DNA of 26,623 bases, taken from the IMG/VR virus record IMGVR_UViG_3300017987_000318, positions 1 to 26,623 of that record. One strand, 5' to 3'. Made by a program: the position numbers and the translations under genes. Shown here one piece after another: positions 3,648 to 16,811 of the stretch. The notes under the pieces are model-generated. The model ran no database searches, was not told the DNA's origin, and was given only the letters and a program-made list of their open reading frames with translations. Each line of letters begins with the position of its first letter. The first letter of the stretch is position 1. Origin of the DNA: a virus.

Positions 3648-4010
3648 ATGAAACACAAGAGGAAAAGACCGAAAGCCCGCCGCGCCGGTTGCCTTATGTG
3701 TAAGCCTCACAAACTTACCGGAGAGAAGAAAGTGAAGGAGCTTCCCCAATCTGAACTCCCCCCACGTCACCGTTCCAAGAAGAAAACACGGAAATGGTGT
3801 AAAGGGAAAGTGGGAATTTCCCACGAGCCTGCGTGGGTTCCTAGCGAAAGCTATGGTTGGCTCTCCGTAATGCGCCCGAATTACGAATACGAACATCAGG
3901 TTTACAAATGCCGGAACTGTGGTAAGATCCTAGATTGGCGGACGCTTCACAAGGTCTGCGGAAAGGTCCACAACAGCTGGCATGGCTGCGAAGAAGGAAA
4001 AGAGACGTAA
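3648..4010 (+). CDS. Basic zinc-ribbon protein, 120 aa
   Basis: The N-terminus is strongly basic and contains RRAGCLMCKPHK at about residues 11-22, a CxxC motif in a lysine/arginine setting that I recall from short uncharacterised phage proteins. A second cysteine set, CRNCG near residues 92-96 and later CGK and HGCEE, suggests a zinc ribbon in the C-terminal third. The middle is lysine-rich. It follows TerL by 11 bases, with only a weak AGG before the ATG, so coupling to TerL is likely. It overlaps the next gene by 29 bases. The function is unknown; nucleic-acid binding is inferred from charge and cysteines. Confidence 0.7.
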   Translation: MKHKRKRPKARRAGCLMCKPHKLTGEKKVKELPQSELPPRHRSKKKTRKWCKGKVGISHEPAWVPSESYGWLSVMRPNYEYEHQVYKCRNCGKILDWRTLHKVCGKVHNSWHGCEEGKET

Positions 4011-4272
4011 GGGGAGCAAAGTAAACCGTTCCCAAAATGGGAACGTTTGCACCCATAGTGGGCATAATGAGTACTACATTTGCTCACGTTGCGGACAGTG
4101 CTATCCTTGTTGCCATCAGATAATCATTCACCGCCAGGAGAAAGCCGGTGTGTCGTGCTGGTGGAAGTGTCGAGATGGCTTTGAGAAACCGGCCTACCTT
4201 GATCATGGGCAGTTCAAGCCTCTCTCTCACAAGCTCTCCTCGAAAGGGATACCATGGGAAAACTTCGTATAG
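3982..4272 (+). CDS. Zinc-ribbon protein, 96 aa
   Basis: A basic N-terminus (MAAKKEKRRKGSK) is followed by a cysteine-histidine cluster at about residues 23-59: one Cys with His, CSRCGQCYPCCH, then CWWKC. Seven cysteines in 96 residues indicate one or two bound metals. It begins inside the 3' end of the preceding zinc-ribbon gene and its own 3' end overlaps the SLOG gene by 19 bases, so the three form a coupled chain. No ribosome-binding site better than a weak purine stretch is seen. The exact function is not recognised. Confidence 0.65.
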   Translation: MAAKKEKRRKGSKVNRSQNGNVCTHSGHNEYYICSRCGQCYPCCHQIIIHRQEKAGVSCWWKCRDGFEKPAYLDHGQFKPLSHKLSSKGIPWENFV

Positions 4273-4661
4273 GAATCGTTGGGTCCAGAAATTTCGGTGA
4301 CCTCTCCCGAGTCTCGAGTCTCGTAGAAGCTCTGCATGAGGCCTACGGCGATGGGATTGTCATTGTCTCTGGTGGAGCCCGTGGTGTTGACAAGACTGCA
4401 GTCGACACCGCTAAACGCTTGAAAATAGAGTACAAAGAGCACCTACCCGATCCAAATGTCAAGCCATTTGTCAAGGCTGCGAATGATCGAAACACGAAGA
4501 TCGTCGAGGATTCGGACAAGATTTACGCCTTCTGGTCCGTAAATAAAGAATCCACTGGCACCGTTGACACCATGTATAAAGCATTGATGGCTGGGAAGTT
4601 AGAGATTGTCTACACCCCGAAAGGCGTCCTCAGAAATACCTATAATCAGCAGAATCAGTAG
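4254..4661 (+). CDS. SLOG-domain protein (YspA/DUF2493-like)
   Basis: The 135-residue protein is a Rossmann-like SLOG domain. Visible motifs are GIVGSRNF at residues 7-14, VSGGARGVDKTA at 38-49, RNTKIVEDSDKIYAFW at 79-94 and STGTVDTMYKAL at 100-111, in the order expected for the YspA/DUF2493 branch related to DprA. SLOG proteins bind nucleotides, nucleotide-derived ligands or nucleic acid. Which one applies here is not visible. GAAAGGG precedes the ATG. It is the last gene of the packaging cluster, before a terminator-like hairpin and a new promoter. It is not a known virion component, so a role in infection such as ligand binding or counter-defence is possible but speculative. Confidence 0.85.
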   Translation: MGKLRIGIVGSRNFGDLSRVSSLVEALHEAYGDGIVIVSGGARGVDKTAVDTAKRLKIEYKEHLPDPNVKPFVKAANDRNTKIVEDSDKIYAFWSVNKESTGTVDTMYKALMAGKLEIVYTPKGVLRNTYNQQNQ

Positions 4662-4665
4662 CATA

Positions 4666-4686
4666 GGGGTTAACTCCATATTTTTT
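4666..4686 (+). terminator. Weak intrinsic terminator candidate
   Basis: GGGG (4666-4669) can pair with CTCC (4674-4677), one pair being G-U, around a TTAA loop. Six T residues follow at 4681-4686. The four-pair stem is weak, so termination may be partial. It lies just after the SLOG gene and 22 bases before a promoter-like -35 box. Confidence 0.35.
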
Positions 4687-4708
4687 GCGTATTTCTGGAA
4701 ATAGCATC

Positions 4709-4736
4709 TTGACAAACGTGGTAGTTTTCCTACATT
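4709..4736 (+). promoter_or_regulatory. Sigma70-like promoter upstream of portal
   Basis: A perfect -35 hexamer TTGACA at 4709-4714 is followed after 16 bases by TACATT (4731-4736), a four-of-six match to TATAAT. Transcription would start about 4743, leaving a short leader to the portal ATG at 4758. The ten bases TCTTGACAAA recur at the second promoter near 7829. An inverted repeat GGTAG (4720-4724) and CTACC (4737-4741) flanks the -10 box and could be an operator. Confidence 0.45.
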
Positions 4737-4757
4737 CTACCGTGGGGAGAACACCAC

Positions 4758-6320
4758 ATGCCAAGCACTACTCCTATTTTGAAGTCGGCCAGGGAATACC
4801 TGGATCCTAAAGACTACGAGACCTACCTAGAAAAGCAATCCGAGTTCATGCGCGACCTCGGTACTGGCTACGATATGAGCCAGGTCGCCAAGCGAATACC
4901 TCGTGCTGCTCATTTCAGGGATGTTGGTGCTCCTGGTCTTAGAATCTATTCAGGGTTTCTCGAGGAGGAATTCCTTCCTGAACTCCGCGGGCATCTTGCT
5001 GCGCGTGTCTATCAAGAGATGCGTGACAATGATCCGACTGTCGGCGCGATGCTCTACGTTATGGAGCACCTTATTGGTAACGCGACCTTGAATGTGCTAA
5101 CCGATGATACCTCTCCGCAGGGCGAGAAGGCGCGCATGCTGGTTGAAACCTCTATCAACGACATGATCCACCCATGGAACCATGTCTTCTCTGAGATCCT
5201 CACGTTTCTGCCGTTCGGTTATTCGTACATGGAGGTGACGCTGAAGCATCGTAGGGGTCACCACAGAGATCCGAATAAGGATTCTCAATACAACGATGGT
5301 TTGATCGGTTGGAGCAAGATGGCGCTCCGCGGCCAAGATACTACGTATCGGTGGCACATGGACGAGACCATGAATGTAGTTGCTCTTGAGCAACTGCCGC
5401 CACCGCATTTCATAAATACCCTGGTACCAAGGGAGAAAGCTCTTCACTTCACGATCCGTCCGTACAAGTCGAATCCTGAAGGGCGCTCCATCCTACGCAA
5501 TGCATACAGACCTTGGTTCTTCATGAAAAGGATCGAAGAGATCGAAGCCATCGCCGTTGAGCGTGAACTCAATGGTATGCCTGTATTGCAGCCTCCTGAG
5601 GGATATAACCTATGGAACACGAAAGATCCAGTTGCTCAAACCCTGTTGACCCGCGCAGAGGAACTGGTGAGGAACATTCGACAGGATATGCATCAAGGTG
5701 TCGTGCTCCCATTCGGATGGACATTGACTCTTCTGAGTGCGACCGGCCAAAGATCTCTCGACACATCGATCATCATCAACCGTTACGCACAGCGCATCGC
5801 TACTGTAGCTCTTGCGGATATGCTTCTTATTGGGCAGGAACGTGTTGGTTCGTTTGCTCTCGTTGCGGCGAAAGTGAGTTTGTTCAGCAAGGCACTTAGA
5901 TCCGTGGCAAATGTTATCGAAGGTGAATTCAATCGACACGCCATTCCTAGACTGCTCCGAATGAATGGGATGCGTACAGAGAAGACGCCGTACATTAGAT
6001 TCGGTCCGATCGATACTCCAGATCTCAAGTCACTCGCAGAATATGTGAACAAGCTCGTTGGGAACAATGTATTGACTCCCGACCAGAACCTCGAGAGACA
6101 CATGAGGGAGATTGCATCATTTCCAATACGAATCGATCCTAGAGAGACATTACCAGCGATTGGTGACGTGATGGATCCTTCAGACGATGATGATCCACAT
6201 GATCAGCCAAATGTCGGTGCCCGTCCGGGACCGGCGGAGGACGCTTTCTCTGATCAGCCGAAGAAAAAGCCGGGGGAGGAACAACAAGCATTCCCACCTG
6301 AGGGAGGGGAGACAGCATAA
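4758..6320 (+). CDS. Portal protein (DUF935-like)
   Basis: The portal forms the dodecameric ring at one capsid vertex through which DNA is packaged and to which the connector binds. The 520-residue length fits. Recognisable features are LTFLPFGYSYMEV near residues 148-160, PEGRSILRNAYRPWFFMKR near 240-258 followed by IEEIEAIAVERELNGMPV, and a helical region near 340-410, as in DUF935/Mu gp29-type portals. The final 50 residues are acidic, proline-rich and probably disordered. GGGGAG precedes the ATG. The stop overlaps the next start in TAATG at 6318-6322, so the protease gene is probably coupled to it. Confidence 0.9.
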   Translation: MPSTTPILKSAREYLDPKDYETYLEKQSEFMRDLGTGYDMSQVAKRIPRAAHFRDVGAPGLRIYSGFLEEEFLPELRGHLAARVYQEMRDNDPTVGAMLYVMEHLIGNATLNVLTDDTSPQGEKARMLVETSINDMIHPWNHVFSEILTFLPFGYSYMEVTLKHRRGHHRDPNKDSQYNDGLIGWSKMALRGQDTTYRWHMDETMNVVALEQLPPPHFINTLVPREKALHFTIRPYKSNPEGRSILRNAYRPWFFMKRIEEIEAIAVERELNGMPVLQPPEGYNLWNTKDPVAQTLLTRAEELVRNIRQDMHQGVVLPFGWTLTLLSATGQRSLDTSIIINRYAQRIATVALADMLLIGQERVGSFALVAAKVSLFSKALRSVANVIEGEFNRHAIPRLLRMNGMRTEKTPYIRFGPIDTPDLKSLAEYVNKLVGNNVLTPDQNLERHMREIASFPIRIDPRETLPAIGDVMDPSDDDDPHDQPNVGARPGPAEDAFSDQPKKKPGEEQQAFPPEGGETA

Positions 6321-7813
6321 TGTCTGAATTCCACTCGGCGTTTCACCAGAAAGCAAAGGAACTCATTCCGGAGTTCTTGTACGAGCAGATCAAGTCTGCC
6401 GCCATCCCTATGTCGGGGGCACAGGCCAGATGGAAGATGTCTGGCCCGTCTATCTTCGAGAAGATCGCGATCCCTCAGCTTAGGCCGGAACGCTTGAAGA
6501 ACCTAAAGGATAAGGAACTCAAAACAATTCTTTCTCGGCTCAATAGGATATTTGTGACTGCGAAGCGGACGAAAGAAGACACATCAGCCTTCCTTAAGGC
6601 TAGCAATTGGGTGGTACAAGAGATGCGTGAACGAAAACTTTCTATCGATACGAAGCTGGCTGTTATCCAGGAGTACATCGGGAAGACTGACGACGAAGTC
6701 GAGAAGACACTCCAGGGTGAAATTATGCGCGATGCTCCAATGAGCGATCGAGGCTACACTGTAGAAGAGACGCTTCAGATGGTTTCGGAGAATGGTAAGT
6801 TCACCTTGGAACAGGCGAACTATATCGATCGCGCTCCGGATGGCCACACTACTTGCTCCGGTTGCCGTTTCTTCATGCGCTCCATGGGTGAGGCGGGGAC
6901 ATGTCAAGTCGTGGACGGCGATCCCATTTACTGGTTTGCCAAGTGCGATCTCAACATCTGCGCGAAGTATCTATCTGAGTTCAGGTTCCGTCTTGCGCAG
7001 GAGCTTATCCATTCTGAATTGATGGACCAAGCTCTCGGTCTACACAAAGCATCCGAGATGGGAAATGATGATGACGAAAATACTGATCCTAAAAAGCCAG
7101 TGATGGAACTCGTCAAGGCCAAGATCCGCAAGCGTATTCGTCCTACTGCTAGTGGAAAATGGGAAGTAACTGATGATTCTGGGCAGAAAGTTCTTGGAAC
7201 ACACGACAAGCGTTCCGATGCGATTCGCCAACTCGCTGCTATCGAGTCCTCGAAGCTCAAACGGCAAGGTGAGGAAACTGTGAAGCAGAAAGTGAAAGCC
7301 AAGCTGGAGCGTGAAACCAACAAACTTGACAAGAAATGTGGGGGAAAGGTGGATAAAGGACAGCCCACACTTGGGCAGGTTCACCAACCAGGTAGTGGGA
7401 AGGACGAGGATGAGGAAGACGACGAAATAAAGAAAGAAGATGTCTGGTTCAACGTCCCAATCGCGAAAATCGACAAGAAAAAGCAAAAAATTTACGGAAT
7501 CGTTCTCGAGCCAGAAGAGACCGACACTCAAGATGATACGGTGAGTGCAGAAGAGATCGAAAAAGCTGCGGAGAGCTTCATGCTCCGTTCTCGCCGGATT
7601 GGTCTGCGTCATCGTAAAGTCGCGGAAGGTGTTGAGTTGACAGATAGTTACGTGACACAAGGGCGTACCAAGCTCGGTCCAAAAAGCTTGAAGGTCGGCA
7701 CCTGGATCATTGGGGTGAAGGTGAAAGATCCTGCACTCTGGGCCGGAGTTGAACGTGGTGAGTACAACGGATTCAGCGTTGGAGGGCACGGAACTCGCAG
7801 AAAAAATGCCTGA
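6320..7813 (+). CDS. Multidomain capsid maturation protease (XkdF-like) with HiPIP-like cluster
   Basis: The 497-residue protein has four parts. The N-terminal 170 residues are helical and unassigned. Residues 175-215 hold C179, C182, C195 and C209, spaced C-x2-C-x12-C-x13-C with CxFF and CQVV-x-G features like high-potential iron-sulphur proteins. Residues 268-312 form a small basic repeat-like domain (SGKWEVTDDSGQKVLGTHD). An acidic linker leads to residues 374-497, an XkdF-type prohead protease: IYGIVLEPEETDTQDDTVSA, H431 and GFSVGG with S486, the likely catalytic pair. XkdF-like proteases cleave scaffold and capsid proteins in the prohead. The protein stops right after GFSVGGHGTRRKNA, whereas relatives usually continue to an EVSLV segment, found here in the next ORF. 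Confidence 0.82.
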   Translation: MSEFHSAFHQKAKELIPEFLYEQIKSAAIPMSGAQARWKMSGPSIFEKIAIPQLRPERLKNLKDKELKTILSRLNRIFVTAKRTKEDTSAFLKASNWVVQEMRERKLSIDTKLAVIQEYIGKTDDEVEKTLQGEIMRDAPMSDRGYTVEETLQMVSENGKFTLEQANYIDRAPDGHTTCSGCRFFMRSMGEAGTCQVVDGDPIYWFAKCDLNICAKYLSEFRFRLAQELIHSELMDQALGLHKASEMGNDDDENTDPKKPVMELVKAKIRKRIRPTASGKWEVTDDSGQKVLGTHDKRSDAIRQLAAIESSKLKRQGEETVKQKVKAKLERETNKLDKKCGGKVDKGQPTLGQVHQPGSGKDEDEEDDEIKKEDVWFNVPIAKIDKKKQKIYGIVLEPEETDTQDDTVSAEEIEKAAESFMLRSRRIGLRHRKVAEGVELTDSYVTQGRTKLGPKSLKVGTWIIGVKVKDPALWAGVERGEYNGFSVGGHGTRRKNA

Positions 7814-7920: not shown

Positions 7921-7969
7921 ACCCTACCCTACTTGCCTCACCCGCAAGGGTCTCGCAAGGGTCGCGTTG
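7921..7969 (+). promoter_or_regulatory. Leader able to sequester the scaffold ribosome-binding site
   Basis: ACCCT occurs at 7921-7925 and 7926-7930, and ACCC at 7940-7943. AGGGT occurs at 7947-7951 and 7958-7962. The second AGGGT is part of AAGGG (7957-7961), the likely Shine-Dalgarno site of TTG 7967. Nested pairing 7921-7925/7958-7962 plus 7926-7930/7947-7951 would hide it. The 10-base repeat CGCAAGGGTC (7943-7952 and 7954-7963) offers competing partners. Translational control is inferred. Confidence 0.35.
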
Positions 7970-9427
7970 AGCAATCCAGAACAAGTGATTGCCATGACTA
8001 CGCGGCTTAACAAGCGAGCAAAATACAGACTAGCAGACATTGATGCGCGAGAGGTGTCCCTAGTCCCCAAAGCCGCAAACAAGCAACGATTTCTACTCAT
8101 GAAAATGGAGGATCCAATGTCGGATCTCAACGACACCCAGCAATTTGAGGAAGAGATCCTGAAAGCCGACTTGGAGGAAGCATTGACTACCGAAGTTGAG
8201 AACGAAGACACCATTCTTGAAGGTATGGTGGAGAAAGAGAACCTCTCTAGTCGTGCCTGGAACGCCCTAAAGGGCACCCTCCGACTTTTCAAGGCTTTCG
8301 GAGATGAAATACCCGAAGACGTCATCGAGAAGATTGCACCACAGTCCAAATACGTCTACGAGTATGGTGATGTAAAGATCACCAAGGAAGAAGTTGACGC
8401 GTACCTGGAGGCGACCGAAACTGCGGAATGCAACGTAGATAAGGCGGAAAAACCAACGAAGTCTGAGGGCGGTAGAAATTTCTTTGCCTCCGACTACGCG
8501 TACGTACCGGACCCTCAGAAACCATCAACTTGGAAGCTACGTCTCACCAACACTCCTGGTGGAGCCCCAGATCCCAGAATCGTCGGAGCAGCTGTTGCTG
8601 CACTCGGCAAAGGATTCCGCGGACAAAAAGTCCAGCTTCCTGCGGCTGATCGCGGGAGGGTAAGAGCTAGAGTTCGCGCTGCGTGGTTGAAGGCCAACCC
8701 AGAAAAGTCTCGTGAAGACCTTCCAAACATTCTCAAATCGGACACGGAGGAAAAACCCATGGCTGATGAAAAGACTGCTCTAGAAGAGGAAGTCCAAAAG
8801 GGCGAACTCGAGGAAGAGCAGACACCGAAGTCCGAGGAAGTAGAGAAGGCCAAAGTTTCGAAGCAACCTCCTATGCCCTCTGAAGAGGAAGAAGAGGAGG
8901 AGGAAGAGAAGATGAAGAAGGCGAAGATGAAGAAGGCCGACGAAGCTTCCGAGGAAGTAACCATCTCCAAGGCTGATTACGAGAAGCAGCAAAAGGAAAT
9001 CGCTGCTATTCGTAAGGAGCAAGCGGAGACCAAAGCAGAACTCGAGGCAGAGCGTAAAGCTCGTGCCAACGAGAAGGCGATCGCCAAGGCCGCAGAGGAC
9101 TATCCGAATCTTCCTGTGAAGTCGGATGAACTCGGTCCTATGGTCCAGGCGGTTCATGAAGCTCTCACGAAGGAGCAAGCGGAGACCTTTGAGCGGATCT
9201 TGAAGGCTGCTGACGAAGCCATTGCGGCAACGAAGGCTTTCGAGGACGCGAAGGGCGGATCGTTCCAACTTTCTGAAGCTGGATCTGCATACGCTCGTAT
9301 CAAGGAGATCGCGAAGTCCATCGTCGAGAAGAGTGAAAACGGCATGACGGAAGCGCAAGCGTTCGTCAGAGCTACCGAAGAGAATCCGCGACTCTATGAC
9401 GAGTACCTAGCGGAAACCAGGGGGTAA
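7967..9427 (+). CDS. Scaffold-like capsid assembly protein with protease-tail segment
   Basis: The N-terminus (residues 21-45) reads RLADIDAREVSLVPKAANK and RFLLMK, the segment that normally ends prohead proteases. Residues 168-256 form a compact domain (FFASDYAYVPDPQKPSTWKL, later VGAAVAALGKGF and VRARVRAAWLK) met in protease-linked phage proteins. Residues 262-390 are glutamate/lysine-rich coiled coil, including a run of nine glutamates, typical of scaffolds that fill the prohead and are later degraded. TTG 7967 follows AAGGG at 7957-7961; ATG 7994 lacks a site. An internal ATG at 8117 has a perfect GGAGG at 8107-8111, so a shorter scaffold lacking the EVSLV segment is probably also made, recalling nested lambda C/Nu3. 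Placement before the capsid gene supports the role. Confidence 0.75.
   Translation: MSNPEQVIAMTTRLNKRAKYRLADIDAREVSLVPKAANKQRFLLMKMEDPMSDLNDTQQFEEEILKADLEEALTTEVENEDTILEGMVEKENLSSRAWNALKGTLRLFKAFGDEIPEDVIEKIAPQSKYVYEYGDVKITKEEVDAYLEATETAECNVDKAEKPTKSEGGRNFFASDYAYVPDPQKPSTWKLRLTNTPGGAPDPRIVGAAVAALGKGFRGQKVQLPAADRGRVRARVRAAWLKANPEKSREDLPNILKSDTEEKPMADEKTALEEEVQKGELEEEQTPKSEEVEKAKVSKQPPMPSEEEEEEEEEKMKKAKMKKADEASEEVTISKADYEKQQKEIAAIRKEQAETKAELEAERKARANEKAIAKAAEDYPNLPVKSDELGPMVQAVHEALTKEQAETFERILKAADEAIAATKAFEDAKGGSFQLSEAGSAYARIKEIAKSIVEKSENGMTEAQAFVRATEENPRLYDEYLAETRG
8107..8111 (+). promoter_or_regulatory. Internal ribosome-binding site GGAGG for nested scaffold start
   Basis: GGAGG lies five bases before ATG 8117 in the reading frame of the scaffold gene. 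It is stronger than the site at the upstream TTG start and would give a product beginning MSDLNDTQQ. Confidence 0.55.
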
Positions 9428-9433
9428 CTAAAC

Positions 9434-9829
9434 ATGGCTACCGAACTTCATGGTTTCAAGATCACTAGGGTTGCTGGAGAGGATCTTTCGGACAACCAGT
9501 ATCGCTTCGTGAAAATCGACCCTGCCAACCCCAATGAGGTCATCAAGGTGACCGCAAATACGGATGAGCCTGTTGGAGTCCAGCAAGGTGATCCCGAGGA
9601 AGGGGAAGAGGTTGAGATCGTTGTATACGGTATCACCAAGCTTGTCGCCGACAGTGGTATCAGCTACGGCGACGAACTCGGAACCTCTGCAGATGGTGAG
9701 GGAGACACGATTGTTTCTGGTATGGACGTGACGCAGTTCAAGCTTGGAAAAGCTATGGAAGATGCGTCCGGTGCTGGAACGATCTTCTCGGCGTTGATCG
9801 ATTGCGCAGCGCCTTCCAGGGCTGCATAA
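9434..9829 (+). CDS. Capsid decoration-like protein
   Basis: The 131-residue product is predicted all-beta and acidic. The pattern VGVQQGDPEEGEEVEIVVYGITKLVADSGISYGDEL near residues 47-82, with repeated glycine turns and a late GKAMEDASGAGTIFSALI, is that of DUF2190-type capsid cement or decoration proteins that stabilise the expanded head. It lies between the scaffold and the major capsid gene, the usual place for a decoration protein. Only a weak purine site (GGGGGTAA) precedes the ATG at six bases from the previous stop. The family name is inferred from pattern and position. Confidence 0.7.
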   Translation: MATELHGFKITRVAGEDLSDNQYRFVKIDPANPNEVIKVTANTDEPVGVQQGDPEEGEEVEIVVYGITKLVADSGISYGDELGTSADGEGDTIVSGMDVTQFKLGKAMEDASGAGTIFSALIDCAAPSRAA

Positions 9830-9842
9830 GGAGGATTGACCA

Positions 9843-10793
9843 ATGCCACAACCTACACTCAATCAAGTTCACGTAGACGCGATCCTCACCCAGGTCTCCG
9901 TTGCGTACATCCAGGAACAGGATGCCTTTTGTGCTACGAAGGTATTTCCGATCATTCCTGTAGACAAGAAGAGCGACCTCTACTATGTCTATGACAAGAA
10001 TGATTGGTTCCGCGATGAGGCGAAACGGCGAGCACCGGCTACCGAGTCGGAGGGGTCTGGATATAACGTCGGAACCGACAACTACAACTGCGACGTCTGG
10101 GCCATCCACAAGGATGTGGACAACCAGACTGCGTCCAATACGGACGTACCTCTCAATCCGTTCCGTGATGCCACTCGGTTCGTGACGCAGAAGATGCTTC
10201 TCCGTCAAGAGAATCAGTGGGCGGCTGACTTCTTCACTATCGGTGTTTGGGATAGCGATATCACTCTCACCGATTCCTGGGACGACTATGCGTCCTCCGA
10301 TCCTATCGACGATGTCGAAGAAGGAAAGGAGACCATTCTTGGTACGACCGGCCACAAGCCTAACACGCTTGTTATGGGCTACCAGGTGTTCCGGAAGCTG
10401 AAGAACCATCCGGACATCATCGACCGGATCAAGTACACGCAGTTCCGTGTCGTTGCTGAAGATCTTCTCGCCACCCTGTTTGGTGTAGAGCGGATCATGG
10501 TGTGTCGTGCAATTCAGGCGACCAATGCTGAGGGTGAGGCCGAAGCTTACGATTTCATCCAAGGAAAGCAGGCGTTGCTCATGTACGTTGCCAGCGCACC
10601 TGGGCTCTATGAGCCTTCCGCTGGATACACCTTCGCTTGGCGTGGAGTCAGCCAAGGTCTCGGAGAAGCCATCGGAATCACTCGTATCCCAATGCGCCTC
10701 AAGAAGGCGGAGCGGGTCGAGGCCGAGAAGGCGTGGGACAACAAGGTTGTCGCGCCTGACATGGGCTACTTCTGGACTAACGCTGTTTCCTAA
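9843..10793 (+). CDS. Major capsid protein
   Basis: The 316-residue protein is the likely HK97-fold shell subunit. Recognisable segments are VSVAYIQEQDAFCATKVFP near residues 18-36, FRDEAKRRAPATESEG near 56-71, and CDVWAIHKDVDNQ near 83-95, followed by a helical spine region and a C-terminal beta domain ending in DMGYFWTNAVS. The N-terminus is short, so a large cleaved delta domain is not evident; the separate scaffold may replace it. AAGGAGG at 9829-9835 is the best ribosome-binding site in the window, as expected for the most abundant protein. Two strong hairpins follow its stop codon. Confidence 0.88.
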   Translation: MPQPTLNQVHVDAILTQVSVAYIQEQDAFCATKVFPIIPVDKKSDLYYVYDKNDWFRDEAKRRAPATESEGSGYNVGTDNYNCDVWAIHKDVDNQTASNTDVPLNPFRDATRFVTQKMLLRQENQWAADFFTIGVWDSDITLTDSWDDYASSDPIDDVEEGKETILGTTGHKPNTLVMGYQVFRKLKNHPDIIDRIKYTQFRVVAEDLLATLFGVERIMVCRAIQATNAEGEAEAYDFIQGKQALLMYVASAPGLYEPSAGYTFAWRGVSQGLGEAIGITRIPMRLKKAERVEAEKAWDNKVVAPDMGYFWTNAVS

Positions 10794-10864: not shown

Positions 10865-11191
10865 ATGTTGCACCAAGTTCTGAAGAAGTTTAAGGCAGAA
10901 GGACGCATGCTCGAAAGAGGGGAGATAGTTGAGACGTCTCACTGGAAGAATGAGCGCCTCCTCTTGGAGCACCGATTCATCGGTAAGCCTTCTGCGCCCG
11001 AGAAGGACAAGGAGCAAGTGAAGTCCGGTAACCGCATCGTGAAGAACGAGCGTGAACCGCTACCTACTTCTCGGGAAGTTTCTAAGCTGTCGGTGTCACC
11101 GAAACCTCCTGTTCTCTCCGAGAGACCTGGAGGGAAGGATGTAGGGGATGTCCCTGCAGTCGGAAGGGTGCCGGTGGCTAAAAAGGGGTAA
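10865..11191 (+). CDS. Hypothetical small head protein, 108 aa
   Basis: The first 45 residues form a compact domain (FKAEGRMLERGEIVETSHWK, then NERLLLEHRFIGKP) that resembles small proteins found after capsid genes in other phages, where a similar fold begins with a charged helix and a GEIVD-like strand. The remaining 60 residues are proline-, lysine- and glutamate-rich and probably disordered. AAAGGA precedes the ATG, just after the post-capsid hairpin. The exact role is unknown; a minor head or head-completion protein is inferred from position. Confidence 0.6.
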   Translation: MLHQVLKKFKAEGRMLERGEIVETSHWKNERLLLEHRFIGKPSAPEKDKEQVKSGNRIVKNEREPLPTSREVSKLSVSPKPPVLSERPGGKDVGDVPAVGRVPVAKKG

Positions 11192-11656: not shown

Positions 11657-11669
11657 AACAATGCTTTCC

Positions 11670-11717
11670 GGGGGAAGGGCGTGAGTGTATGCACCTCTGC
11701 ATAGGGGCTCTTCCCCC
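11670..11717 (+). promoter_or_regulatory. Nested hairpin upstream of the signal-peptide genes
   Basis: An outer stem GGGGGAAG (11670-11677) with CTTCCCCC (11710-11717) encloses an inner perfect stem TATGCA (11688-11693) with TGCATA (11698-11703) around CCTC. No T-run follows. It separates the head genes from the two secreted-type genes and could attenuate transcription or stabilise RNA. Confidence 0.5.
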
Positions 11718-11736
11718 AGAGCCTTGAGGTGTTGAA

Positions 11737-12231
11737 ATGAAGCGTATAGCTTTCGCACTCGCGCTCGTATTGTGTCTGGCAATTCCAGCCGCTACACAAA
11801 CGGGTGGCAAGCGGGCAGATATTTTCGAGAACTACGACCTCGACTCCGTTGCATACGTCTACTGCGATCCTGTTACGTACGCGACCAATCCTCCCGAGGG
11901 CATGGATCAGTGCTCCACCGGAACCGCAGCTGAAGATGGATGGGTTGATGCGCGTACTGAAGACTTCAAAGGGATCGCTATGCATGTCGATGCGATGGCA
12001 CTAGCAGCCGGAACCATCGATATCTCTATTTACGCCAGAGTCAAGGTAGGGACTTCTCCCATTCAACTCGGTTTGACAAACTCCTTCGCAGCTGTCGGCA
12101 CGCACTACGTAGTCATCCCTGAAGCCCTCAGACAGATCCGTGTGGGTATCAGGATCAATGGTGCGGACGATGGCGATGCGGCGGATGAAGACATCTCCAT
12201 CTACTACTACGGTTCGCGGAGACTGAGATAA
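11737..12231 (+). CDS. Signal-peptide-bearing beta-rich protein, 164 aa
   Basis: The N-terminus is a classical Sec signal: MKR, then a hydrophobic core from about residue 4 to 16 (AFALALVLCLAI), then a small-residue region near 18-20 suited to signal peptidase I cleavage. C13 is not in a lipobox because leucine precedes it. The mature part is beta-rich, ends in EDISIYYYGSRR, and has exactly two cysteines (C43, C59) that could form a disulphide outside the cytoplasm. GAGGTG precedes the ATG. The stop overlaps the next start in TAATG. Position within the head cluster makes a secreted protein surprising; function unknown. Confidence 0.75.
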   Translation: MKRIAFALALVLCLAIPAATQTGGKRADIFENYDLDSVAYVYCDPVTYATNPPEGMDQCSTGTAAEDGWVDARTEDFKGIAMHVDAMALAAGTIDISIYARVKVGTSPIQLGLTNSFAAVGTHYVVIPEALRQIRVGIRINGADDGDAADEDISIYYYGSRRLR

Positions 12232-15200
12232 TGAAACGCACATTCCTATTCTTTGTCGTGTTCTTGGCTATCGCCGGGATGGCATCTGCACAGAGTAGCA
12301 GACAAGGCGGAGGTCTGTCGTCTAAGGCGATTATGGCACTCGAGAACTGCTTTGACGCCTACGACAACTTCGTCTGTGGTGGTGGTGGTGGGCCTATCCC
12401 TGCTGATAATGTGACCGGTACTGGTGTGTCTCCGTATCTTGTTCGTTGGAGTGGTGCTCATACTCAGGACTCGAGCGCGCTTCAAGACACGCTCACCAAT
12501 CTGATCATTCCTTATGACTATCAGGTTGATTTTGGTACCGGTGCCAACATTACTACGCTTATCCACCGCACGTTCGGTGGTGCTGCAGATCGTTTCGAGA
12601 TCGATGCACAAAACAACAACGCCGGTATTGCGATGTTCGTTGGTGGTCCTTGGAGTGTCATCTACGATTATGGTGGAGCCAACAAGCCATACATCAATAT
12701 GAATGCTCTTGTGCTAGCCGGTACGTCTGGCCCTCAGTTCAATATTATCGGTCAGGGTACTGAAAGTGCGATGGACAGTGCAGATGATCGACGGTACCAC
12801 CTTAACATTGAACCCGCTTCCGGAGCACATACTGCAGGAATCAAATATGGTGCGTTTTGGGGATCTATCACTCCATCTGCCGCAACTGAGATCCACACAC
12901 AGCTTGGTAGCGGATGGGATCACGATTGGAACAAGGGTGATGCAGCTGGAGCGAACAATACGTACCTGGATTTTGCTGCTCCGTCTGGGAACAATACTGT
13001 AACGATCCCTGCGGCCACTGGTACGATTATGCTCTCTGCTGGTGGAACCACAAACTACATGACCAAGTTCACAGGAGCAACTACAATCGGTGACTCTATG
13101 ATCACCGATGATGGTGTAAATGGTGTACGGTTCCCTAACGACTACAAGCTATTGTTTTCTAGTTGGCCAGGAGGCGGAGGGATCTACGAAGTCTATTTCG
13201 ATTCCGGGACTGGAACGGTTCATAGACGGCACCGCCTCGATGTGATTGACACGTTGATTAACAACGGCTCCTACCAAGAATGGACGGTTGGTGCGGCAGG
13301 ATTGAATTCTGGTGATTACAATGTCAGGTATAGAAGCAATGTACCTGCACCAGGGATTCCAGATACTGGCTGGTTTATGTACGACGCCTACGCCCGCGAT
13401 ATGAACGGGACCACACGAACACTTGTGGACTTTTTCAGACTTTCGCCTACGTTTACAGCAAATACAGGAACGGGCAACGTTGCGAATGGCTTCAAGTTCT
13501 CGAACATCACACCAGGAGCCAACGCGACCCACAACGCGATCAACTTCGGGACTGGTTGGGACAATGAGATTCGCTACGAGACTGCGACGTTCACGACTGA
13601 TATTGGATTCAATACTCCTACCGCCAATCGGACTATCGCTGTACCTGACGTGTCTGGGACGTTTGGAGTTGTGACGTCGACAGCAACTAGACATGTGTAC
13701 CAGGGAAGCACAACCGGCGAGCTAGTTGACTCCGAGATTGCAGAGGCGGCAGTGCCAGCAGCGGCATCAGGAGGGGATGTACTTTCCATCGCACCAACGC
13801 TTAATGACCCTGGTGCGGGGAATACAATCAACCTCTTCAATTTCAATCCGGACATTACGGCATTGTCTAGTGGAAAGACCAACTACATCAACATGAACTT
13901 TGGTGATGCGGACGATTCCTCCGAGGTTGTCTACGGTATAAACTTTCATCAGACCTCCAACGATATCGGAGAGATCCGCCACATCCATGCTGATGCCCCA
14001 TACGGTATGAGACTTGGGGCTGATGTAAGTTTCAATTTCGTGATAGATGATGATGCAACCGCCGATGAGTGGTGGTTCCAGTTGTTCACACCAGCTGCCA
14101 ACGGTAGCTATATGGGTGCTGGGAACATAACAACTATCGCGATGGCTCCAGGTGATGTGCAAAAGCTATTCAATATGCAAGTGGCTCAGGGGGCGCACAC
14201 TGGCGGAGAATGGACCTGGCTCTATCTCGATTCGTTCACCGCACCAAATGCAAATGCCGACGAGTGGGGTATCTACTTCGGGCGTTACATGGATGCAGGT
14301 CTAGCATTTGAGGGGAGCGTCGGCGATGCGTGGGAGACTACAGTTCATGTCGTCAATCCTACTGCTGACAGAACAATCCTTTTTCCAAACGCTAGCGGTA
14401 CAGTCGTACTTGAATCCGGCTTGACAGCAAACAAGATCCCTTATTGGGATGGAACAAAGCTGGTGGACTCCAACATCTGGGACTGGGGAACTGATATCGA
14501 GTACGGGACCACAGGAGGCGGGCTTGTTCATTGGTTCTACCTAGATAGTTACCCAACCGGCATCTTTAAGATACTGGAAGAGAACAACCAGGAGCGGTTT
14601 CGTGTGCATGCCACATTTGGAGCGGCTGGAACTAGCTCCAATGACATAGTTCACCTAGGCAATCCTGCAGTGATGGATGGTAACGATGTCAAGAATATGT
14701 ATTCCTCCAGTATCACAAACGCCGCACACACAGGAGCCAATAACTGGTTGAATGCTTTTCGTGTACAACTCTCTGCTAACAGTGCCAATGCGACGGAATC
14801 GTTGCTGTCGATGAGGAATACGTTCGATCACCTGCTGGAGGTCAATACGGACGCGACTTCCGGTCAGGGAAACCAGTTCTTCATTGACGTGCCGTCCCCA
14901 TCGGGCACAAACACTGTTACCTTTCCAGACGCAACAGGGACGGTTGCGCTGGTTAGCGCAGGATCCGGAACTACAAACGTCATCCCAAGGTTTGCTTCAC
15001 CGAATATCGTAGACGGATCTATGAGTGATAACGGGGCTGGAACCATCACTAGAGCAGGTACGCTTCAGTTCGCCGTGAACGGTGGAAACCTATTGCTCAC
15101 TGCGAACGGAGCCGGAGACGACATTGTCGCAACATCCGATAACGGTTACTTCCAGTTCGCAAGTGCGCGCAGATTCAACATCTCGACACATCAATTGAAC

Positions 15201-16361: not shown

Positions 16362-16811
16362 ATGACTTTCTCGTACAAGCTTGCTGAGGGTCTCCCAGGA
16401 GATCGAGACAAGGTACGTTTCCTCTCCGGCGATACCAATAAGGATGACCACGTACTCGAGGACGAAGAAATTGACTTCATCCTGACGCAGGAACCTAATA
16501 TCTGGTTTGCCGCAGCTATGGCTGTCAATCAGATGGTTCTCAAGCTGCAAGCTGGTATTTGGGAGGAACAGAAAGTTGGTGAGACACGTCTACGTGCTCG
16601 CAGGATCTCTGATCTCAAGGTCAAGGAAGATCAGCTTCGAGCACGTGGTGCGATGCATCAGCAACCTTCTATTGGAGGTGTGTACAAAAGCGAGCGGGAT
16701 GCCCTGTTGTCGAATTCCAATATCCTACGTGGAGATTTCTTTCGTGGGATGCACGACTACCCGGGTACTACTCGTCGTAGTAGACCTGCGGTCGACTTCA
16801 CGGTGATTTAA
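16362..16811 (+). CDS. Head-tail connector (adaptor) protein
   Basis: The opening RDKVRFLSGDT (residues 15-25) followed by LEDEEIDFIL (32-41) is characteristic of gp6/gp15-type adaptor proteins that bind under the portal and extend the DNA channel. Helices continue to about residue 95, and the C-terminal 40 residues carry charged and aromatic residues. Length 149 is slightly long for the family. The ATG follows the fibre stop by 12 bases with AGAGGG upstream. It starts the connector block and is followed directly by the head-closure gene (TAA then ATG). Confidence 0.82.
   Translation: MTFSYKLAEGLPGDRDKVRFLSGDTNKDDHVLEDEEIDFILTQEPNIWFAAAMAVNQMVLKLQAGIWEEQKVGETRLRARRISDLKVKEDQLRARGAMHQQPSIGGVYKSERDALLSNSNILRGDFFRGMHDYPGTTRRSRPAVDFTVI

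Follow-up and report, generated by a model that had tools for sequence, protein, structure and literature searches.

In the prevailing view, tailed phages produce and assemble their fibres in the cytoplasm. Phage proteins with export signals include the Bor- and Cor-type outer-membrane proteins, which are encoded in or beside the tail genes of late operons and act on the envelope. The lom gene of lambda sits between tail-spike and tail-fibre genes (PMC12309495), and the T4 RI protein has a cleaved Sec signal with periplasmic release (PMC8385771), from which it follows that a phage protein can carry a truly cleaved Sec signal. In the literature searched, in which subscription papers were thinly covered, no tailed phage is described as having fibre-type proteins that bear signal peptides. 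Here we describe two consecutive late genes, P1 and P2, that are predicted to encode such signals, the second of them on a fibre-like protein.

The window analysed is a 26.6 kb virus record (IMG/VR IMGVR_UViG_3300017987_000318, 26,623 nucleotides) with 24 genes from a tailed phage that has not been cultured, and is essentially identical to one part of an 83,039-base IMG/VR contig (G001). Its structural module opens with a terminase gene, followed by genes for a portal (4758-6320; PF06074), an XkdF-type protease (6320-7813; PF14550), an ORF at 7967-9427, a cement-like protein (9434-9829; PF09956), the major capsid protein (9843-10793; phrog_1005) and two ORFs starting at 10865 and 11198. P1 (11737-12231) and P2 (12231-16349), both on the plus strand, are followed by a gene at 16362 (phrog_1732), a neck gene (17145), a major tail protein gene (18464) and a tape-measure-like ORF of 1683 aa (20132). 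P1, P2 and the gene that follows them have the same orientation and are closely packed, with the P1 and P2 ORFs sharing a single base (TAATG). AGGTG and GGAGA lie upstream of the P1 and P2 starts, respectively, and no promoter-like site was found before P1. An earlier note called both genes structural; this holds for their position only, as membership of a late operon does not make a gene product part of the virion (lambda lom, PMC12309495).

A SLOG/DprA-type gene (PF10686) is located between the terminase and portal genes (4254-4661), and a similar ORF occupies the same slot in the relative L006 (4341-4757). On the 83 kb contig there are 27 tRNA genes and a gene for an RtcB RNA ligase (PF01139) (L089-L091; L090:15201-16430), likely a tRNA set with repair. 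Elsewhere on this contig (L090:16390-18500), one gene encodes a 500-aa protein that has 12 cysteines and a signal peptide, and next to it is a lipoprotein-like gene of 223 aa that includes a Thr-rich stretch; neither has a Pfam match above threshold.

At the N-termini of both P1 and P2, a basic region is followed by a strongly hydrophobic core and then by an exit of small residues: MKRIAFALALVLCLAIPAATQTGGKR... in P1 and MKRTFLFFVVFLAIAGMASA/QSSRQGGG in P2 (slashes mark predicted cleavage). P1 (164 aa) has a Sec signal at residues ~1-18/20 (11737-11796, plus strand) and a mature part of ~145 aa, while P2 (1372 aa) is modular, with a signal at residues 1-20 (12231-12290, plus strand), a constant start at residues 21-49 and a variable body. 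Signals were scored with a crude detector of our own (basic N-region, hydrophobic core and AXA-like site; not SignalP), which flagged only P1 and P2 among the 24 window genes. With a slightly different cut-off, 370 of 100,000 random N-termini of window composition pass (0.37%). When the first 45 residues were shuffled, the core hydrophobicity was matched in 6/20000 cases for P1 and 1/20000 for P2. The P2 site (ASA/QSS) is a textbook one. That of the window's own P1 is weaker, with the best -3/-1 fit after A18; the sites in P1 relatives are VSA/Q, ASA/Q and AAA/Q. The sequence features of Sec export and signal peptidase I cleavage are strong in P2 and in the P1 relatives, with a weaker site in the window P1. 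The P1 of relative L005 (MERL) has an N-region that is net-neutral apart from the N-terminus. An in-frame ATG at P2 residue 18, which is not preceded by a good Shine-Dalgarno (SD) sequence, would lose the hydrophobic core if used as the start; in three of the four P2 relatives, a GGAG-like SD precedes the full-length start. A lipobox (Cys at +1) is absent from both proteins.

The cassette is retained in relatives whose major capsid protein is 82-83% identical, with P1 in L005, L006 and L015 and P2 in L005 (220 aa), L006 (545 aa) and L007 (609 aa). L007 and L015, which come from one metagenome, were considered as a possible single phage, but their overlap is only 79% identical and they are thus different phages. 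P2 immediately precedes the protease gene in L007 and follows the capsid gene elsewhere. Both genes are absent from relatives with ~60% capsid identity. Matches to the major capsid protein at 60% identity lie in one Acidobacteria MAG and one Actinomycetota MAG and so point to no single host phylum. The sample is small (four members each for P1 and P2, plus the three cases described below, on partial contigs). In all four P1 and all four P2 members the signal persists as a property while its sequence drifts. Identity among P1 members is 35-65% in the signal and 62-75% in the mature part, and the P2 residues that follow the predicted cleavage site (QSSxQGGGLSxKAI) are nearly fixed. The earlier report of consecutive Sec-type signals, the second with an ASA/Q site, is thus borne out, and the signals prove to be kept in relatives. 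No match was found for P1 among annotated phages (tblastn) or for the P2 N-terminus in 84,980 genomes, and a search of P2 against a phage collection gave no phiCbK match. The sole P1 match in a sample of 396 Acidobacteriota genomes (L189) was rejected, as the similarity is limited to the signal peptides, and L188 was rejected because the match falls over an unrelated enzyme-like frame.

P2 is fibre-like in design, with a constant start of ~30 residues that contains a Cys pair, followed by variable modules. The constant mature N-terminus (12291-12377, plus strand; QSSxQGGGLSxKAIxxLExCFDxxDNFxC) is conserved in the four P2 relatives and in two genomic slots. Further along is a tail-fibre motif (14298-14426, plus strand; FEGxxADAxETxxxxxxPTADRTxxFPNASGTV), and residues 684-729 match phrog_38058 (tail fiber; 1.4e-9 over 46 residues), as does the P2 of L006. 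P1 has no match to fibre families. Neither protein matches Pfam, and hence neither matches a known outer-membrane protein family there; the PHROG match of P2 is to a tail fiber. The motif occurs in more than 595 places in IMG/VR. Among 87 motif ORFs with a closed 5' end at the best 80 of these >595 loci, two have a signal, both of which are L006 (seen again as L104), and all 85 complete ORFs outside the clade at these loci are signal-less. In L006, the gene next to P2 (14013-14963) is a third one with a fibre motif and encodes a hydrophobic N-terminus; after it come two small genes (L006 14013-15551 in all), one of which encodes a 76-aa membrane protein.

Similar signals recur in unrelated phages. 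Two phage contigs, L102 and L103, were reached through the C-terminal domain of the L007 P2; they encode signal-bearing proteins (MRKLLCLIVLLLMAGSAGA/DVREVV... and MRKLMAVLALALLASVAVA/EVREVV...) from genes just before the head protease gene (L102 1974-2720 and L103 4529-5281). In L102, the flanking genes are for a portal (phrog_12) and a head maturation protease (phrog_53), and in L103 the gene lies between portal and head protease by gene order. The two proteins are 47% identical in the signal and 88% in the mature part. L103 also has adjacent paralogues with a common N-terminal domain (3756-5281), of which the upstream one has no signal (MHSEGQEVVVLSGHSF...), carries the C-terminal domain of the L005 P2 and starts at approximately the point where its signal-bearing neighbour would be cleaved. 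This suggests that the signal was joined at about the position where the other protein starts. One further case was found in the 396 Acidobacteriota genomes: a 684-aa prophage protein (MRIFQVLLSLGLLASPALA/Q) whose gene adjoins capsid, adaptor and tail genes and overlaps its structural neighbour, on a contig that also bears ordinary bacterial genes (asparagine synthase, ECF sigma factor and protein kinases). The signal-bearing proteins of L102, L103 and the prophage share a fibre domain with the P2 family and are encoded within structural modules. As both related and unrelated phages carry signals on fibre-like proteins, these phages probably send some fibre-type proteins out of the cytoplasm.

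Structure prediction added a lead for the L102 protein. Its AlphaFold model (pLDDT 55) matched regions of phage tailspikes, as well as a capsid spike, in the PDB (Foldseek, E 7.5e-5 to 5e-3, TM-score ~0.3) and many tail-fibre-type proteins in BFVD, a resemblance that we treat as a lead only. The P1 model (pLDDT 55) is a low-confidence beta-sandwich with jelly-roll or CBM-like matches, all with E > 0.001, and was for these reasons set aside as functional evidence. Sequence searches of the PDB returned nothing.

The cysteine content of the signal-bearing proteins is consistent with export. Mature P1 has two cysteines (43 and 59, both conserved, with one more within the signal) and mature P2 has six (40/49, 1011/1016 and 1346/1369), the even numbers that had been pointed out before. 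In each of the 11 signal-bearing proteins analysed, the mature part contains cysteines, always in even number (2, 4 or 6; 0.44-2.0 per 100 aa), these 11 not being independent, as ancestral pairs are common to the P1 and P2 families; additional cysteines in the variable parts are also paired. In contrast, 75 distinct signal-less motif ORFs average 0.07 per 100 aa, with no cysteine in 58, an odd number in 13 and an even number in four. The Acidobacteriota prophage protein, with 13 mature cysteines, is an exception to the even rule, and the signal-less paralogue in L103 has two cysteines as well.

The 80-base gap upstream of P1 contains a hairpin (11669-11724, plus strand, within a leader stretch at 11669-11736) with an 11-bp stem and an apical loop, CACCUC, that is complementary to the P1 SD. 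All four P1-bearing phages have this hairpin, and its stem is well supported: four pairs show compensatory changes, and all 44 cells (across four phages) are paired. The loop or its variant can pair over 6-7 bases with the P1 SD in 4/4 phages, but as any SD can pair with an anti-SD-like loop, this pairing is no more than suggestive. No match was found in Rfam and no convincing second copy in the searched sequences; a terminator scan did not call the hairpin, which lacks a downstream T-run. We consider it a candidate new translational control element, which may time the translation of P1 and, via the overlapping stop-start, that of P2.

Taken together, these observations make Sec export with cleavage the simplest reading of P1 and P2, and a highly probable one. 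We put at roughly 0.55 the probability of the fuller reading, in which both proteins are exported, cleaved and disulphide-bonded and act outside the cytoplasm, perhaps by masking receptors. P1 and P2 would be late proteins made together with the capsid proteins, exported by the host Sec system and cleaved by signal peptidase I; once outside the cytoplasm, their cysteines would pair into disulphides. P2 would be a fibre- or spike-type binder, its N-terminus short and constant and its body changing fast, and P1 its small beta-rich companion, with a site of action in the periplasm, at the cell surface or in the lysate. The fibre part could bind the host envelope and mask a receptor or surface glycan, reducing superinfection or the re-adsorption of progeny to debris. 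We favour masking because the binding body is fast-changing and envelope-acting proteins are known in late operons (lambda Lom, PMC12309495), but this part of the proposal is tentative. A surface role would require a further step across the outer membrane if the host is diderm, and no anchor or secretion domain was found in P1 or P2. The weak likeness of the L102 model to tailspikes and a capsid spike would suit virion incorporation better.

Incorporation could occur late: P1 and P2 may mature with disulphides in the periplasm and join finished virions when lysis mixes the compartments. The two genes lie among head genes and near a cement-type gene, a constant N-terminus with a variable body resembles an attachment part plus a binder, and the L102 matches and the signal-less L103 neighbour, which has the same N-terminal domain and could be an ordinary virion protein, point the same way. 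We nevertheless regard such decoration as doubtful, since both structure models are of low confidence, the literature searched describes no tailed-phage precedent, and P1 and P2 are missing from relatives with a ~60% identical capsid protein and so are not general virion parts. Less likely still is the wider idea that some tailed phages that infect environmental bacteria assemble a portion of the fibre or spike coat extracytoplasmically, through Sec export, periplasmic oxidation and attachment to the virion at lysis. The signals might instead be uncleaved N-terminal anchors that stay in the inner membrane or dock to the capsid, with no soluble export; the strong hydrophobic cores would fit, and the product of the third fibre-motif gene of L006, whose N-region is long, could have a signal anchor. 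Most relatives have AXA-like sites, however, the core diverges whereas the residues that directly follow the site are kept, the signal-less L103 paralogue begins near the cleavage point of the other, and the cysteine pattern suggests a location outside the cytoplasm. An anchor is therefore improbable, and of the roles proposed in the earlier note, predicted export and disulphides are well supported by the conserved signals, the cysteine pattern, the recurrence and the signal-less paralogue, while docking to the capsid loses ground. We think it similarly improbable that P1 and P2 are accessory "moron" genes (encoding adhesins or surface proteins, for instance) that modify the cell during infection or lysogeny and lie in the structural module by chance. 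Their patchy distribution, the changed place of P2 in L007 and the related arrangement in a prophage would agree with this, and lambda lom is such a case (PMC12309495), but the lack of a detected promoter-like site before P1, the tight unidirectional spacing of P1, P2 and the next gene and the overlap of the prophage gene with its structural neighbour count against it, as do the 27 tRNA genes, which are more typical of virulent phages.

The described systems each share only part of this combination. The phrog_38058 proteins of marine and other environmental phages have a motif in common with P2 (FEG...ADA.ET...DPTADRT), but outside the clade they differ from P2 in lacking signals (the 85/85 ORFs noted above) and mostly lack cysteines. 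The closest structural matches of the L102 model, at low confidence, are the tailspikes CBA120 TSP4 and Solidus gp83 and the Pa223 capsid spike, which are assembled in the cytoplasm and are not known to carry signals. The phiCbK head-filament candidate gp76 is, like P2, very large and encoded near head genes (PMC3556154); in contrast to P2, no signal is reported for it in the available part of that account. T4 antiholin RI has a cleavable Sec signal (PMC8385771), as is predicted for P1 and P2, but is a lysis regulator that is not fibre-like and is encoded outside the structural module. Lambda Lom, like P1 and P2, is signal-bearing and encoded in or beside the tail genes of the late operon, and it acts on the cell envelope; Lom, however, is a beta-barrel outer-membrane protein, whereas P1 and P2 appear soluble and beta-rich or fibre-like, with no anchor or family match of that kind found. 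Export signals on fibre-type proteins within head and tail operons would imply either a secreted binder that acts on the envelope or an unrecognised extracytoplasmic step in assembly.
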